DNA from: a virus
Direction: 5' to 3' (one strand)
Length of the DNA: 23,580 bases
IMG/VR virus record: IMGVR_UViG_3300020401_000094
Span: 1 to 23,580 of that record
The notes under the pieces are model-generated. The model was given only the letters and a program-made list of their open reading frames with translations. It made no database searches and was not told where the DNA came from. The position numbers were made by a program, and so were the translations under genes. This document shows, piece by piece, positions 2,132-17,885 of this stretch (its first letter is position 1; each line of letters opens with the position of its first letter).

Positions 2132-2578
2132 ATGAATTATGCAATTATAGATGGTACTACCGTAAAAAACACTGGTACTATTCAAAAACTATTTCCTAAT
2201 ACAAGTTTTAGTGCTGCTGGCCTTAATGCAGATTTTTTGACAGCAAATAATGTTGTTGAACTTGTGCAGACTCTTCCCTATACAACACCAACACAAAAGC
2301 TATCTTCTGTAGATGCTTATGTTAAAAATGGTAAAGTATATACTGTAAAGGTAGAATCCACAACTTCAGATGAGCAGACTGCTCTCATAAATCAACAATG
2401 GGCAAATGTAAGATCAGAAAGAGATCGTAAATTACAAGGAACAGATTGGGTGGCTGCAAGAGCATCTGAAACAGGAGTTGCGGTGAGTGATGATTGGAAG
2501 ACTTATCGTAAAGCACTCAGAGATGTGCCAACACAATCCGATCCATATAACATCACTTGGCCTACAGAACCACAATAG
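2132..2578 (+). CDS. tail assembly chaperone-like protein
   Basis: This is a 148-residue protein. The C-terminal region (about residues 92-140) has the pattern WANVRSERDRKLQGTDW followed by WKTYRKALRDVP. That R-x-x-R-D..L...DW...W..YR.aLRD.P signature belongs to the phage tail assembly chaperone/tail-fibre assembly family (PF16778-like). The N-terminal part is beta-rich and probably a small fibre or baseplate-binding domain. Its position right after two fibre/adhesin genes supports a role in fibre folding or attachment. The ATG at 2132 lacks a clear Shine-Dalgarno sequence, as do most genes here. Confidence 0.6.
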   Translation: MNYAIIDGTTVKNTGTIQKLFPNTSFSAAGLNADFLTANNVVELVQTLPYTTPTQKLSSVDAYVKNGKVYTVKVESTTSDEQTALINQQWANVRSERDRKLQGTDWVAARASETGVAVSDDWKTYRKALRDVPTQSDPYNITWPTEPQ

Positions 2579-2626: not shown

Positions 2627-2830
2627 GTGTTAAATAATGTGATTTGCTGGCATTTAGCCTTTCATTTTAGAGTAAGTCAAATATTATATGAGAAGATGGT
2701 TGATCTTTATGATCTTGAAAAAACCAATCATAGACTTCTTTATATATTTAAAGAAGAAAAATCAATTAAAAAAGCATCACAAGGTGTTTGGACAAAACTC
2801 TTAAATGAACTAAAGGTATCAAAATTATGA
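2627..2830 (+). CDS. small basic hypothetical protein
   Basis: The longest reading is 67 residues from a GTG at 2627. An in-frame ATG further on would give about 44 residues (MVDLYDLEKTNHR...). The stop TGA at 2828-2830 overlaps the ATG of the next gene (ATGA), which supports genuine translation and coupling to the membrane protein downstream. It is basic and mostly helical in appearance (EEKSIKKASQGVWTKLL). The start choice is uncertain and the function unknown. Confidence 0.45.
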   Translation: MLNNVICWHLAFHFRVSQILYEKMVDLYDLEKTNHRLLYIFKEEKSIKKASQGVWTKLLNELKVSKL

Positions 2831-3168
2831 ATTATTTTTTATCTTGTCCCCCAATGTATACTTTACCAGGTACATGGGCAGATGCAGAGAAAATTGAAAA
2901 ATGCAAAGAAACTCTTATTCCTCACGGGAATTTAGGCCAAGGTGCAGCTTTTGCTGTATTTATTGGTTTACTGGTTTTACTTTTATTGATCTATGGAATT
3001 TATATGACTTTTGGCAAAGGAGGTAAAAATTTAAGAGATGAAATTAAAGAACACTCAAGATTACATGAATTAGGAATAGCTCATGGACATGAAGGTGGTG
3101 GAGATACTTTTAATTTATCTAAAAAAGCAATGGCTAAAGATTATCCTCAACATAAACACAAAAAATAA
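2827..3168 (+). CDS. small single-pass membrane protein
   Basis: This is a 113-residue protein. A hydrophobic segment at about residues 41-63 (AFAVFIGLLVLLLLIYGIYM) is a clear transmembrane helix. It is preceded by a short region with two cysteines (C7, C26) and followed by a charged tail rich in Lys and His, ending HKHKK. It starts inside the stop of the upstream ORF. The topology would fit a holin-like or envelope protein, but one helix is not diagnostic and I do not recognise the family. It is the last gene of the plus-strand tail block, converging on the minus-strand hli block. Confidence 0.6.
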   Translation: MNYFLSCPPMYTLPGTWADAEKIEKCKETLIPHGNLGQGAAFAVFIGLLVLLLLIYGIYMTFGKGGKNLRDEIKEHSRLHELGIAHGHEGGGDTFNLSKKAMAKDYPQHKHKK

Positions 3169-3341: not shown

Positions 3342-3512
3342 TCATTTTGCTTTTTGAAAAATAGGAGTCATGATACCGCCACTTTGGTCATCATCATCGT
3401 CACCATCGATGGCACGTAAAACTAATTCTATAAGAATTAAACAACCTATGGGATAAAACACCCATAGGATTGAAGAAAAATTAGATATTAGATAAGAATC
3501 TTCTAATATCAT
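3342..3512 (-). CDS. small membrane protein with an acidic Asp-run tail, coupled to hli genes
   Basis: This is a 56-residue protein. Residues about 13-34 form a hydrophobic helix (FSSILWVFYPIGCLILIEL), followed by LRAIDGDDDDDQSGGIM, a strongly acidic linker with five Asp in a row, and a short tail (TPIFQKAK). The ATG (cat at 3510-3512) shares one base with the TAA of the upstream hli gene (TAATG), the same junction used between the hli genes. It is therefore very likely part of the hli operon. The single helix plus Asp run suggests a thylakoid or inner-membrane protein that binds metal or a basic partner on the soluble side; that is inference. No name is recognised. Confidence 0.7.
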   Translation of the reverse strand: MILEDSYLISNFSSILWVFYPIGCLILIELVLRAIDGDDDDDQSGGIMTPIFQKAK

Positions 3513-3655
3513 TAAACAAAACCAGGGATTAATTGACCAGTAGTTAAATAAGCTCCTACTGCTGCAATTACACCTAACATTGCTAATTGACCATTAAGTC
3601 TCTCAGCAATTATTTTTTGTTTTTCAATTGGTTTAGAATAAGATTGAATGTCCAT
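3512..3655 (-). CDS. hli: high-light-inducible protein (Hli), 47 aa
   Basis: This is a 47-residue single-helix chlorophyll-binding-type protein. The Hli core is AERLNGQLAMLGVIAAVGAY followed by LTTGQLIPGFV. The usual ExxNGRxAM chlorophyll-ligand motif is here ERLNGQLAM, so Glu and Asn are kept while the Arg after NG is Gln. Phage Hli proteins are thought to protect photosystem II and associated pigments in the host thylakoid during infection. The start codon overlaps the stop of the upstream hli by one base (TAATG), and its own stop overlaps the next gene in the same way. Confidence 0.9.
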   Translation of the reverse strand: MDIQSYSKPIEKQKIIAERLNGQLAMLGVIAAVGAYLTTGQLIPGFV

Positions 3656-3768
3656 TATACAAATCCGGGTATAAGTTGTCCTGTAAAGCTATAAACTGCA
3701 CATATAACGATGAATCCCATCATTGCTGCTCTGCCTTGTGCTTTAAGAAAAATATCTTTGTTATTCAT
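3655..3768 (-). CDS. hli: high-light-inducible protein (Hli), 37 aa
   Basis: This 37-residue Hli is among the shortest forms, essentially only the transmembrane helix. Its core is KAQGRAAMMGFIVICAVY and its C-terminus is FTGQLIPGFV. The GRAAM part of the ligand motif is kept, but the position usually occupied by Asn is Gln (AQGR) and the upstream Glu is replaced by Lys. This may weaken or alter pigment binding. It is joined by TAATG overlaps to the hli genes on both sides, indicating one polycistronic message. Confidence 0.88.
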   Translation of the reverse strand: MNNKDIFLKAQGRAAMMGFIVICAVYSFTGQLIPGFV

Positions 3769-3875
3769 TAGAAAATGCCAGGAATTATGTTACCTGTAGT
3801 TGCATATGCACCTACTGCTGCAACGAAACCAAGCATTGCTGCCCAGCCATTAAATCTTTCTGCTTCAGGAGTCAT
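3768..3875 (-). CDS. hli: high-light-inducible protein (Hli), 35 aa
   Basis: This is a 35-residue Hli consisting of AERFNGWAAMLGFVAAVGAY and a TTGNIIPGIF tail. The Arg of NGR is Trp (NGW), a variant I recall from short picocyanobacterial and phage Hli proteins. It starts at an ATG 18 bp after the stop of the first hli gene, with no Shine-Dalgarno sequence (the leader is C-rich). Its stop overlaps the start of the following hli (TAATG). With only a handful of residues before the helix, it is likely to act as a dimer or with another Hli or photosystem II assembly partner. Confidence 0.88.
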   Translation of the reverse strand: MTPEAERFNGWAAMLGFVAAVGAYATTGNIIPGIF

Positions 3876-3893
3876 GATAATAAAGGGGGTAAT

Positions 3894-4085
3894 TTAGAAA
3901 ATGCCAGGAATAATCTGACCAGTTGTAGTATAAGCACCTAATAAAGCAACAATACCGATCATTGCCCATCTTCCATTTGCTTTTTCAGCTTCTAACGGAT
4001 AACCTTCATAATTAGGATCTATTTGAGTGCGAGGCTCAACAGAGTAAATATTCTGGCGACCACCTGATTCTGTAACTGTTGTCAT
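3894..4085 (-). CDS. hli: high-light-inducible protein (Hli), 63 aa, first of the cluster
   Basis: This is a 63-residue Hli with a longer soluble N-terminus (MTTVTESGGRQNIYSVEP), then AEKANGRWAMIGIVALLGAY and TTTGQIIPGIF. It has the complete ExxNGRxAM chlorophyll-binding motif. I chose the ATG at 4085; an in-frame GTG at 4136 would add 17 residues but overlaps a palindrome and promoter-like sequence, and MTTVTES resembles the starts of other phage Hli proteins. It is the promoter-proximal gene of the four-gene hli cluster, so it is probably the most highly expressed. Confidence 0.9.
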   Translation of the reverse strand: MTTVTESGGRQNIYSVEPRTQIDPNYEGYPLEAEKANGRWAMIGIVALLGAYTTTGQIIPGIF

Positions 4086-4193: not shown

Positions 4194-6761
4194 CTACGTC
4201 TGCTTTTCTGGGAGTATAGTTTCTGAAGATTTATATTTTTGATCACTATTTCTTATTACTAATCCTTTAATAAATGGTCTTCCTTTTTTACTAAAACTGT
4301 AGATTTCCTTCATTCCAAGTTGATTTTTGCAACAATCTAATAACAAAGCTATAAACCTTTTTTGGCCTACTGGTTTTGATCCTGTATCTTCACAATATGA
4401 ACAGTAAGAAGCATATAGATGAAAATTACTGTTTACATATCTTTCTTTTGCGTCTTTTGCAGCTGGTATTTTTTTACCTACAGCAGACACTGATTCAGGA
4501 GAATGAACTACTTCAGACTGTAACCATTCAACTAGATTGTTGCTTGTAAGAAGAATATTATTTCTAACCGCTTTGAGGTGGGTTACTTTTTCATATGTAT
4601 CAAGAAGATATTCTCTCATTTGTTTCGTTTCCATTTGCAGTACCCAATTTACTAATCCTGGCAAATAAGACTTCCATAACCCTTTTACTTCTCCGTTTTC
4701 AAGCTTTATCATTTCTATTGCTTCAGAATTTTTGTCCCATAAAGGTCTGTTAAATTCAACAGTGAGTCTTCTTCTAGTAAGGCCAGAAGTATTATCTGTG
4801 GTTTGAATAGGTTCGTTAGCACAGACCATAACCATTCCTGTATAAACAAAAGGCTCACCAACATTTTTATTTTTTTCTTCAAATCTTAAATTATCTCCTC
4901 CTGTTAAAGCTTTAAAAATTTGTGCGGAACCTCCATATCGTTCAGAGTCATTTATTAAAGTAAGTCTTTTTCCTTTTATTGAGGCTATTTCAAAACGACT
5001 TTGTTCTAGTTGATTAAGCGTTGTAGAGGCATAGTTTCCATTACCTATAAGAGCACAGCATAGGTTAGCAAAAGTAGATTTTCCTCTACCACCAGGGCCG
5101 ATGACTTCTAAAAACCGTTGTAATTCATGACCTTTACCAACAAGACAAGCTTTAAGCCAAGCTCTCAAAACCTGTACTCTTTCTTCATCATTGTATTGTG
5201 TCTTCTTAAGCCATTGAATTATAGGACCAGACTCAGCATTAGGATCATATTCAAAGTCAAGACCCCAAGTTAAATAATTTTCTTGGTCATGAGGTAAAAA
5301 TTCTCCAGTGCTCATTTCTAATACCCCATTTAAAAAAGCTAATTTATCAGGATCGTCATTCCAATAAGGTTGAGTAATATAGGCTTTTGTTAAATTTGTT
5401 ACATCAGATAAAAGATGAGATGTGAAACCACCTGGAGTAGGAATACTTTCTCTTAAAAATAAATCTTGAACGAAGTGTTTATATTCATCTTTATATTCTT
5501 CTCTCCTCCAAGTGCCTTTTTTACGTTGATAAAACATGAAAGTATCATATTTAGGATCATATCTCCAGCCACATTCAATAACCATCCCTGTGACCATTTC
5601 GGCTAATTCCGAAGCAGGTGGTGTTTTTGGTTTACCTTTACTATTTATATTTTCTCTAATTGTTTTTCTTTCAACATTAGAAGGTTCACCTATTAACTCT
5701 GTTAATACTTGATTTACGAAAGGAATAGGTAGTTCTGCATTATCTTGTTTAAAGGCTTTTTTTGCCTTTTTAGCTAAGTTTTCTGGAGATTCAACGACAA
5801 AACCACCAACATCTATATAACCATCTTCTTTAGCCATTGCTCTAAGATGATGTAAACCACAATGATTCTCTGGAGCAGGACCACCACTTACAATTTCGAA
5901 TGTGTCCCACTTTCTTTCACATACACCATCTTCGAAATTTTCTGCTTGCTTTGACCAATCAATCCAGTCAGCTAATAAACTCTCATCTATTTGTTTTAAA
6001 CTCATACCTACTTTTAACCAGTCGTCATAGTCAGCCGATCTTGCAGGATTTAAATGATCAAGATATATCTTGGCTTCATTGACACATTCTTCTAATTGAT
6101 ATTCTGACCCTTCTTCATAATCAAGATTCACTTGTTGAGTGACAATCCCAGATTTAATAGGTTTTTTATATTTTGTTGTAGGGTAAGATTTTGCTATTGC
6201 TTCATATAACCATTCAGGGATTTCTGGAGGATTCTTTGCATATTCAAATCCACCATGAGAGGTTGTAAAATAGCCATCAGTATCAGGATGACTACCCATT
6301 ATTGCTCCTTGCCTTGATCTAAAAAGAATTTCAAAAGCAGGTATCCCTATTTTTATTGTTGCTTTATCAGGTAAAAGATTTAATTTTGTTGAAGGAATAC
6401 TGAATAGCATTCTTTGCCTATCAGGTTTACCAGAAGATATAGTGAGGGTAGGAGGAAAAGCAGCCGATATAGGAGCCCCTGCGAGCTCCTCAAGACCCTT
6501 TATAGCCTCTGATCCATCTATATCTACCCATATCAATCCACCACTGTTAGACCAGACACCTGTTATTAATCCAATTCCTGTTGCCTTTCCCTGATCAAAC
6601 TCACGTTTTATTTCTTCCACTGAGTAGGGTTGAGTAGTCCAACCAGCTATATATGCTCTTTTACCTTGCAGAGGAGTTAACGCCCAATCCTTTGGGATAA
6701 GGTCAAAATTAATCTCTCCCGCTTTTAAATGATTATTTGGTTCTTGGGGTGCAGTTGGCAT
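4194..6761 (-). CDS. bifunctional Prim-Pol primase / SF3 (D5-like) DNA helicase
   Basis: This 855-residue replication protein has three recognisable parts. Residues about 20-190 resemble a Prim-Pol domain (PF09250-like): GIGLITG, the acidic pair in WVDIDG (D80, D82), SSGKPD at about 109-114, and EILFRSRQ. Residues about 228-290 match PriCT-2. The C-terminal part is a superfamily 3 helicase with Walker A GPGGRGKST (555-563), Walker B-like KRLTLINDSE (598-607), a motif C Asn in VMVCANEP (N649) and an arginine-finger region GLTRRRLTVEF (660-670). It should prime and unwind phage DNA in the cytoplasm. The His often seen after the SGK-type motif is not obvious here. It is the last large gene of the minus-strand replication block, before the hli genes. 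Confidence 0.88.
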   Translation of the reverse strand: MPTAPQEPNNHLKAGEINFDLIPKDWALTPLQGKRAYIAGWTTQPYSVEEIKREFDQGKATGIGLITGVWSNSGGLIWVDIDGSEAIKGLEELAGAPISAAFPPTLTISSGKPDRQRMLFSIPSTKLNLLPDKATIKIGIPAFEILFRSRQGAIMGSHPDTDGYFTTSHGGFEYAKNPPEIPEWLYEAIAKSYPTTKYKKPIKSGIVTQQVNLDYEEGSEYQLEECVNEAKIYLDHLNPARSADYDDWLKVGMSLKQIDESLLADWIDWSKQAENFEDGVCERKWDTFEIVSGGPAPENHCGLHHLRAMAKEDGYIDVGGFVVESPENLAKKAKKAFKQDNAELPIPFVNQVLTELIGEPSNVERKTIRENINSKGKPKTPPASELAEMVTGMVIECGWRYDPKYDTFMFYQRKKGTWRREEYKDEYKHFVQDLFLRESIPTPGGFTSHLLSDVTNLTKAYITQPYWNDDPDKLAFLNGVLEMSTGEFLPHDQENYLTWGLDFEYDPNAESGPIIQWLKKTQYNDEERVQVLRAWLKACLVGKGHELQRFLEVIGPGGRGKSTFANLCCALIGNGNYASTTLNQLEQSRFEIASIKGKRLTLINDSERYGGSAQIFKALTGGDNLRFEEKNKNVGEPFVYTGMVMVCANEPIQTTDNTSGLTRRRLTVEFNRPLWDKNSEAIEMIKLENGEVKGLWKSYLPGLVNWVLQMETKQMREYLLDTYEKVTHLKAVRNNILLTSNNLVEWLQSEVVHSPESVSAVGKKIPAAKDAKERYVNSNFHLYASYCSYCEDTGSKPVGQKRFIALLLDCCKNQLGMKEIYSFSKKGRPFIKGLVIRNSDQKYKSSETILPEKQT

Positions 6762-12210: not shown

Positions 12211-12576
12211 TTAAAAATTATATTTTACCCCTAACTTTGTACCCCAATTATTATCGGTTGTATCGTTTGTAACAACAGAAAGTTCACCATATACATTTGT
12301 ATTTTCGGCTAACTCATAACCAGCACCAACTTTACCAGATCCTCTTGTTTCGGAGTCCCCATTTTTAGGGTTATCTAGGAAAGGTCCTCCTTGGATATAG
12401 AAAGATCCTTTTTCCCCAAATGTCCCTTCATAGCCGATATGAAGATCTATGGCATTGCCATTCCACTCTTTCCCTTGGCTTTGTTGATTAAATTCCCCAT
12501 TTAAATACAGGCCAGCAAAGGCAGGAGTTGACAAAGTACAGCAAGCAGCACTTGCTAAAAGAAGTTTGTTAAACAT
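12211..12576 (-). CDS. secreted outer-membrane beta-barrel-like protein
   Basis: This is a 121-residue protein with a clear Sec signal peptide: MFNKLLLASAACCTLSTPAF, cleaved after AFA (residue 21). The mature part shows alternating strand patterns with aromatic and Gly residues (IDLHIGYEGTF, FYIQGGPF, GKVGAGYEL, TNVYGELSVV) and ends in GVKYNF, a terminal Phe as in the beta-signal of outer-membrane proteins. It would be inserted in, or lie at, the host outer membrane. Phage-coded outer-membrane proteins can alter receptor availability (superinfection exclusion) or permeability; which applies is inference. At about 100 residues it could form only a small barrel (about eight strands at most). 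Confidence 0.65.
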   Translation of the reverse strand: MFNKLLLASAACCTLSTPAFAGLYLNGEFNQQSQGKEWNGNAIDLHIGYEGTFGEKGSFYIQGGPFLDNPKNGDSETRGSGKVGAGYELAENTNVYGELSVVTNDTTDNNWGTKLGVKYNF

Positions 12577-16708: not shown

Positions 16709-16748
16709 ATGTCACGAGTTCAAGACATCTGTATTGTATAGTTATGTT

Positions 16749-16772
16749 AAGTCATCTCGGATGGCTTTTTTT
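16749..16772 (+). terminator. second terminator-like hairpin, in front of psbA
   Basis: AAGTCATC and GATGGCTT pair over 8 bp (one G-T pair) with a 3-nt loop and run into a T-tract (16766-16772), only 22 bp before the psbA ATG. A TATAGT box (16737-16742) lies just upstream of the hairpin without a good -35. If transcription starts there, the hairpin is a leader attenuator; otherwise it is a back-up terminator insulating psbA. Confidence 0.6.
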
Positions 16773-16794
16773 ATATTCAATACAACGGACTATT

Positions 16795-17885
16795 ATGGCA
16801 ACATCAGTTCTACAGCGTCGGAATCAATCCGAGTTGTTAGCAGGCTGGCAGTCCCTGTGTAAGTGGGTAACATCAACAGACAACAGATTATATGTTGGTT
16901 GGTTTGGTGTTTTAATGATCCCCTGCCTACTTACAGCAGCGACATGCTTCATAATTGCGTTCATAGCAGCTCCTCCTGTAGACATTGACGGTATTCGTGA
17001 ACCAGTAGCTGGTTCTTTCTTATATGGAAACAACATCATCTCAGGAGCAGTCGTTCCAAGCTCAAACGCAATCGGACTCCACTTTTACCCAATATGGGAA
17101 GCCCTCACAGTTGATGAGTGGCTATACAACGGAGGACCATATCAATTGGTCATCTTTCACTTCCTCATCGGTATCTCAGCTTATATGGGACGCCAGTGGG
17201 AACTTAGTTACAGACTCGGAATGAGACCTTGGATCTGTGTAGCTTACTCAGCTCCAGTTTCAGCAGCTTTTGCAGTATTCCTAGTTTATCCATTTGGACA
17301 GGGTTCATTCTCTGACGGAATGCCTTTAGGTATTTCTGGTACATTCAATTTTATGTTTGTATTCCAAGCCGAACACAACATTCTTATGCACCCATTCCAC
17401 ATGGCTGGCGTAGCTGGAATGTTTGGTGGAGCATTATTCTCAGCAATGCATGGTTCATTGGTAACATCATCTCTAATTAGAGAAACAACTGGTCTTGAGT
17501 CACAAAACTATGGCTACAGTTCGGTCAAGAAGAAGAAACATACAACATCGTTGCAGCTCATGGCTACTTCGGTCGTTTGATCTTCCAATATGCTTCATTT
17601 AATAACAGTAGAAGTTTACACTTCTTCTTAGCTGTATTCCCAGTAGTTTGCATATGGCTTACTTCAATGGGTATCTGCACAATGGCATTCAACCTAAATG
17701 GTTTTAACTTCAACCAGTCAGTTGTAGACGTTAACGGCAAAATTGTTCCTACATGGGCAGACATCCTTAACAGAGCTAACCTTGGTTTTGAAGTAATGCA
17801 TGAGCGTAACGCTCACAACTTCCCACTTGATTTAGCTTGTGCAGAGTCTACACCAGTTGCTCTATCAGCTCCAGCTATAGGTTGA
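16795..17885 (+). CDS. psbA: photosystem II D1 protein, interrupted by a one-base frameshift
   Basis: This is the D1 core subunit of photosystem II. Residues 1-241 read normally from ATG 16795 and include TyrZ (Y165, standard 161), D174 of the Mn cluster (170), E193/H194 (189/190), H202 (P680 ligand, 198) and H219 (215). After Y241 (tac 17515-17517) one base is missing: the frame reads AGTTCGGTC where AAGTTCGGT is expected. The truncated product ends at the TGA 17578-17580 after 261 residues. The other frame continues perfectly as [20 protein letters not shown] through the SLHFF region to [17 protein letters not shown] and APAIG at 17885, so intact D1 would be about 363 residues. There is no slippery heptamer at the site. 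The gene is more GC-rich than its neighbours and has terminators on both sides, as expected of an acquired cassette. A sequencing error is possible. Confidence 0.95.

Follow-up and report, generated by a model that had tools for sequence, protein, structure and literature searches.

A known hli gene cassette with a small acidic membrane protein gene in a marine relative of cyanophage S-EIV1

The sequence studied (hereafter the window) is the whole of a 23,580 nt stretch, positions 1 to 23,580 of IMG/VR virus record IMGVR_UViG_3300020401_000094. Its minus strand carries a cassette of four hli genes in a row followed by a gene for a small acidic protein (Table 1). All five reading frames had been predicted from the letters with the lengths given in the table, and all were found, as were the TAATG overlaps said to chain the last four genes. 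hli1 lies outside this chain and is separated from hli2 by 18 nt. In comparisons with PHROGs, all four proteins matched Hli families (phrog_178 or phrog_20629, E 1e-12 to 4e-26); an Rfam search of the window gave no match. Selection was analyzed with relatives in which 30–70% of synonymous sites had changed (pS 0.3–0.7). The dN/dS ratio was ~0 to 0.3 in most comparisons for the hli genes and 0.10–0.50 for the acidic gene. Since all five frames are under purifying selection and unrelated phages have the same overlaps, we consider the frames real and beyond chance. The 56-residue frame, whose integrity had been raised as a check on the prediction, was intact in all close relatives.

Table 1. Features of the hli cassette and the adjoining primase gene in the window
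Feature	Position	Strand	Description
Primase	4194..6761	-	Prim-Pol/D5-type, directly upstream of the cassette; Pfam Prim-Pol, PriCT_2, D5_N
hli1	3894..4085	-	63 aa, long Hli, full ExxNxR, arm TESGGRQNIYSVEP; phrog_178, E 3.7e-26
hli2	3768..3875	-	35 aa, short, NGW class with Trp in place of the Arg of ExxNxR; phrog_178, E 1.6e-19
hli3	3655..3768	-	37 aa, short E-less class; phrog_178, E 1.3e-12
hli4	3512..3655	-	47 aa, ExxNxQ; phrog_20629, E 3.1e-21
Acidic gene	3342..3512	-	56 aa, single helix; T4-GC 437 / phrog_7843 family, E 2.5e-21
TAATG junction hli2/hli3	3768	-	1-nt stop/start overlap
TAATG junction hli3/hli4	3655	-	1-nt stop/start overlap
TAATG junction hli4/acidic gene	3512	-	1-nt stop/start overlap

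The ligand motifs of the four Hlis differ: EKANGRW in hli1, ERFNGWA in hli2, LKAQGRA, which is without Glu, in hli3 and ERLNGQL in hli4. The motif ExxNxR is complete in hli1, whereas hli2 has ExxNxW, hli3 LxxQxR and hli4 ExxNxQ. The original prediction had described these variants as NGR, NGW, AQGR and NGQ; they are present, but hli3 loses Glu besides Asn and thus departs further than the description AQGR conveys. We refer to hli2 to hli4 as Hli homologs, in which pigment binding is putative and cannot be assumed.

The primase points to the lineage of this virus. Synechococcus phage S-EIV1 was the only phage record that covered most of the primase (34% identity over 98%), and matches between the window and S-EIV1 extended to PolA (39%), the product of the gene adjoining the primase gene (42%) and two small proteins (64%). 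In a megablast search, psbA alone was common to the window and known phages among the matches listed. Because replication genes are shared, we assign the window to an S-EIV1-like lineage: it is a marine relative of S-EIV1 and is unrelated to T4. Seven IMG/VR contigs encode primases that are 81–100% identical to that of the window, and a further contig (L025) encodes one that is 93% identical over a part. In each of them the hli run and the acidic gene lie beside the primase gene, which is a fixed neighbor of the cassette in at least eight contigs of the lineage. In S-EIV1 itself no acidic gene was found, and Hli gave at best a marginal match (E 0.011). Marine genomes of the S-EIV1 group that carry hli and ptoX were reported by Nishimura et al. 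(2017), together with a further singleton group that has psbA and hli (PMC5332604); the passages concerned give gene names and do not describe the cassette, its Hli classes or an acidic gene.

Several other genes of the window were also noted. A frameshift close to codon 262 (~17530) breaks psbA (16744–17885) in two. In three relatives (G001, G003 and G006) the gene is open over 386–403 codons, and the break stems either from an error in sequencing or assembly or from a lesion of recent origin. A 113-residue single-helix protein, encoded at 2827–3168 on the plus strand and therefore convergent with the cassette, showed a sub-threshold match to PsbN (E 2e-4) and falls in phrog_8051; many cyanophage contigs encode homologs of it close to the acidic gene. 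The product of positions 12211–12576 (minus strand) matched the Pfam family of outer-membrane-like beta-barrel proteins of cyanophages (PF24653, E 1.3e-35); in many other cyanophage contigs, a relative of it is encoded upstream of hli.

The arrangement of the cassette is not new. It is the same in the T4-like Prochlorococcus phages P-SSM4, P-SSM3, P-HM1, P-SSM2 and P-SSM7, in which, as in the window, a long Hli, a short NGW Hli and further short Hlis are followed by a T4-GC 437 protein, with 1-nt overlaps. For example, in P-SSM4 (PSSM4_177-181) Hlis of 68, 35 (NGW), 36 and 44 residues precede a T4-GC 437 protein of 57 residues, and 1-nt overlaps occur at two junctions. Similar cassettes were detected in P-SSM3, P-HM1 (PHM1_199-203), P-HM2, MED4-213, P-RSM6 and metaG-MbCM1. 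In P-SSM2 (PSSM2_272-279) and P-SSM7, the 35-residue NGW, 37-residue E-less and 47-residue Hlis are chained as in the window. The window differs from the T4-like phages in that its E-less Hli gene, 47-residue Hli gene and acidic gene are all directly chained, and in that the cassette stands beside a Prim-Pol primase gene in an S-EIV1-like phage and is convergent with a PsbN-like gene. It is ~12.7 kb from psbA, compared with a distance within ~6 kb in phage isolates. Hli clusters 270, 271, 274 and 436 were tabulated previously by Sullivan and colleagues in 2010 (PMC3037559). Podovirus NATL1A-7 (L015, 4824–5111) has a version with two genes right after psbA; one encodes a long Hli and the other, which is unannotated, an E-less Hli with Gln. 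What is new is the finding of this known cassette in a little-known, under-studied phage lineage. The presence of one cassette in two unrelated phage lineages leads to the natural inference that it moved horizontally between S-EIV1-like and T4-like phages, in either direction.

We then compared the short Hlis across cassettes; motifs were read by eye at loci L018 and L137 and in the long Hli of P-SSM3 and P-SSM4. All 42 distinct short MTPEAE proteins of the NGW class have Trp where the motif has Arg; the class is present in Prochlorococcus too. In the alignment of the E-less class, Glu is replaced by Leu, Phe, Ile or Val and Asn is replaced by Gln or kept, with Arg invariant. In every distinct case with upstream sequence (36/36), the start of the E-less gene and the stop of the gene before it overlap by 1 nt. 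It might be argued that tandem Hlis are redundant and simply raise the amount of Hli, without division of labor and with the motif variants as tolerated drift. Hlis are indeed multicopy in hosts and phages, and the length of the hli run differs between phages. This explanation is improbable, however, given that the variants are fixed by class, both in the Trp of NGW proteins and in the invariant Arg of E-less proteins, that each Hli is under purifying selection and that the NGW class occurs in hosts as well. Judged by these alignments, the ligand variants are conserved classes and not products of decay. No biochemistry on Hlis with NGW or E-less motifs was found in the literature. In LIL3, mutation of the Asn of ExxNxR abolished pigment binding (PMC8617258), and the loss of ligands in the variant Hlis could likewise mean that these proteins do not bind pigment.

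A more specific possibility, which we regard as speculative and rather unlikely, is that NGW and E-less Hlis are complementary half-sites, forming an obligate heterodimer with an asymmetric chlorophyll site whose stoichiometry would be set by translational coupling. NGW proteins keep Glu without Arg and E-less proteins keep Arg without Glu; therefore, neither could form Glu-Arg contacts by pairing with itself, and the two together would form exactly one. Among 83 distinct E-less cassettes, 72 also have an NGW Hli. The other 11 comprise six that are apparently cut short upstream and five that have NGR or NGQ instead. NGW occurs without E-less in 33 cassettes, and NGW is common anyway. These counts fit the half-site proposal without proving it; a strict Glu/Arg complementarity between the two classes was rejected, as the counts show that pairing is not strict.

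The long Hli appears to have a different function. The N-terminal arms of long phage Hlis share, with small variations, the pattern T-E-x-G-[GK]-R-Q-N-x-[FY]-x-x-E. When a profile of 16 arms was searched against the whole PDB, the sole sequence matched was Tsl0063 (Psb34; 7dxa, 7dxh, 7nhp and 7nhq) with an E-value of 0.0039, in a short alignment of 19 residues (TTESGGRQNMFAAEPRIE against TTDEGGRLNNFAIEPKVY). The arm of hli1 alone found nothing in the PDB. Of 12 long phage Hlis, 10 matched the NCBIfam Psb34 model with an E-value of 0.1 or lower, the best being 2.2e-6; hli1 of the window matched it with an E-value of 0.014 and 15.3 bits, which is under the curated cut-off of 45 bits. In Synechocystis, a similar arm of HliA and HliB binds CP47, and both of these proteins pair with the short HliC (PMC9458560, PMC12142464). 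By its sequence, hli1 looks like a CP47-docking Hlip of the HliA/HliB type. The cassette also resembles the HliA/HliB-HliC and Psb34 systems of Synechocystis and Thermosynechococcus in combining a long-arm Hlip, with a GGRxNxFxxEP arm, and a short one-helix Hlip, and the set of one long and several short phage Hlis looks like the same design as HliA/HliB plus HliC. Synechocystis Hlips are not known to depart from the complete ExxNxR motif, whereas the short Hlis of phages are without its Arg (NGW, NGQ) or its Glu (E-less). Hlips need dimerization to bind pigment (PMC12142464, PMC8617258, PMC9458560), and the proposal of a multi-subunit Hli assembly in the original prediction fits this known dimer biochemistry (PMC12142464).

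The acidic protein of the window has the marks of its family, namely a WxxYP helix with Glu, an Asp run and a GGxMxP tail. In an AlphaFold2 model, residues 11–36 form a helix and the tail is unstructured. Trp17, Tyr20, Pro21 and several Asp were invariant in an alignment of 22 rows, and among 126 family members the Asp/Asn run was present in all, Glu29 in the helix in 120 and Arg33 in 101. As Arg33 is usually the sole positive charge near the helix, the tail probably faces the cytoplasm, as predicted from the positive-inside rule. No family was found for this protein in Pfam or NCBIfam and no sequence relative in the PDB. For Psb34 and Psb35, the comparison covered NCBIfam models and PDB entries, and neither gave a match. 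The original prediction suggested a role in pigment or Mn handling, and no test pointed to either. The related idea that the Asp run binds a metal (Mn, Fe or Ca) could draw on the presence of the Asp/Asn run throughout the family, but its length varies, Asn is accepted in hosts, an electrostatic contact would fit equally well and there was no match to a metal-protein family or structure. We therefore consider metal binding very improbable.

A host homolog of the acidic protein was described previously. Steglich and colleagues (2008) reported PMED4_15491 of Prochlorococcus, a transcribed ORF that is homologous to PSSM4_181 and PSSM2_278 and is found in many Prochlorococcus but in no other cyanobacteria (PMC2518516). 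It belongs to the same small acidic family as the protein of the window; the passages of that paper dealing with this ORF give no function for it and no linkage to PTOX or hli. The reported restriction to Prochlorococcus agrees with our host survey, in which the acidic protein was present in 43 of 151 genomes of the family; all 43 are of a Prochlorococcus-like size of 2.0 Mb or less.

To what extent the acidic gene is tied to hli depends on the genomes considered. When viral loci were picked by the acidic protein alone, hli was directly upstream in 46 of 47, and the 47th was cut at the contig end. Conversely, P-TIM40 has a run of Hlis with no detectable acidic gene, so the acidic protein is dispensable. 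Among 15 Prochlorococcus loci with the acidic gene, eight had no hli within a flank of ~5 kb; in one Prochlorococcus genus, an NGW-Hli motif was located 2.05–2.2 kb upstream of the acidic gene on the same strand (26 genomes). The second check raised on the prediction, occurrence of the frame without hli, thus told partly against it. The proposal of a fixed partnership with hli is partly supported: in viruses the acidic gene is a conserved part of the hli cassette, but hosts vary and a stable complex with Hlis is unsupported. In seven Prochlorococcus loci without hli nearby, a homolog of T4-GC 272, a small membrane protein of the P-SSM2 and P-SSM7 cassette (L004, 4575–4703; L147, 7101–7322), is encoded at a distance of ~2 kb from the acidic gene.

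The main rival for the role of the acidic protein is a partnership with PTOX in place of Hlis, for example in membrane anchoring or in the regulation of plastoquinol oxidation, in which case adjacency to hli would reflect a common light-stress set. In the same Prochlorococcus genus (41 genomes), the acidic gene is present in 28 genomes and PTOX in 23, and in all 23 of the latter PTOX is directly downstream of the acidic gene on the same strand. At locus L148, an NGW Hli gene is followed in turn by a long Hli gene, the acidic gene and PTOX. In phages, eight loci have PTOX downstream of the acidic gene as well, at a distance of 1.4–3.2 kb. However, most phage cassettes with the acidic gene had no PTOX in the flanking sequence examined, and hli is the fixed neighbor in phages. 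In addition, in a second Prochlorococcus genus (acidic gene in 44 and PTOX in 46 of 61 genomes) the two genes are not adjacent but far apart. On balance, we view an exclusive PTOX partnership as unlikely, yet the least unlikely of the alternatives considered. Host hli and PTOX were among the most enriched host transcripts during infection in the light by P-HM2 (PMC5082946), a phage that carries the hli/acidic cassette. Locus L148 also encodes, near its hli genes (2380–2556, minus strand), another small host protein, which has a single helix and a tail reading NNDDDDMDGGM; several weaker relatives in Prochlorococcus genomes have only the acidic GGxM tail in common with it.

Taken together, we somewhat favor a reading in which the cassette serves during infection as a largely coupled unit for photoprotection of PSII. 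The overlapping genes would be translated largely as a unit. hli1 would be the docking subunit, its arm resembling the arm of HliA, HliB and Psb34 that binds CP47, and the three short Hlis would be HliC-like, minimal one-helix partners that dimerize with hli1 or with each other. Such dimers may keep chlorophyll and carotenoid quenched around PSII under repair and act alongside phage-encoded D1 (psbA). The acidic protein may be a small thylakoid protein that, like Hlips and the plastoquinol terminal oxidase (PTOX), is part of a common light-stress set; its most likely task would be to stabilize or recruit Hlip or PTOX in the membrane, as an accessory or assembly factor. It should be noted, however, that the shortness of the arm match, the loss of ligands in the short Hlis, the separation of PTOX from the acidic gene in the second genus, the host loci without hli and the Hli run of P-TIM40 with no detectable acidic gene speak against this reading.

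Among the photosynthesis genes of ocean viruses, phage hli genes rank with the commonest. Our analysis turns what was a list of hli copies into a set of distinct conserved parts: an Hli that appears to be of a CP47-docking type, two candidate partner types with variant ligands and an acidic membrane protein, the last being common to phages and Prochlorococcus, where it adjoins the PTOX gene. The cassette probably protects the host photosynthetic machinery during infection. Since the proteins involved are few and small, and two unrelated lineages of viruses carry them, the protection of PSII by phages becomes directly testable.
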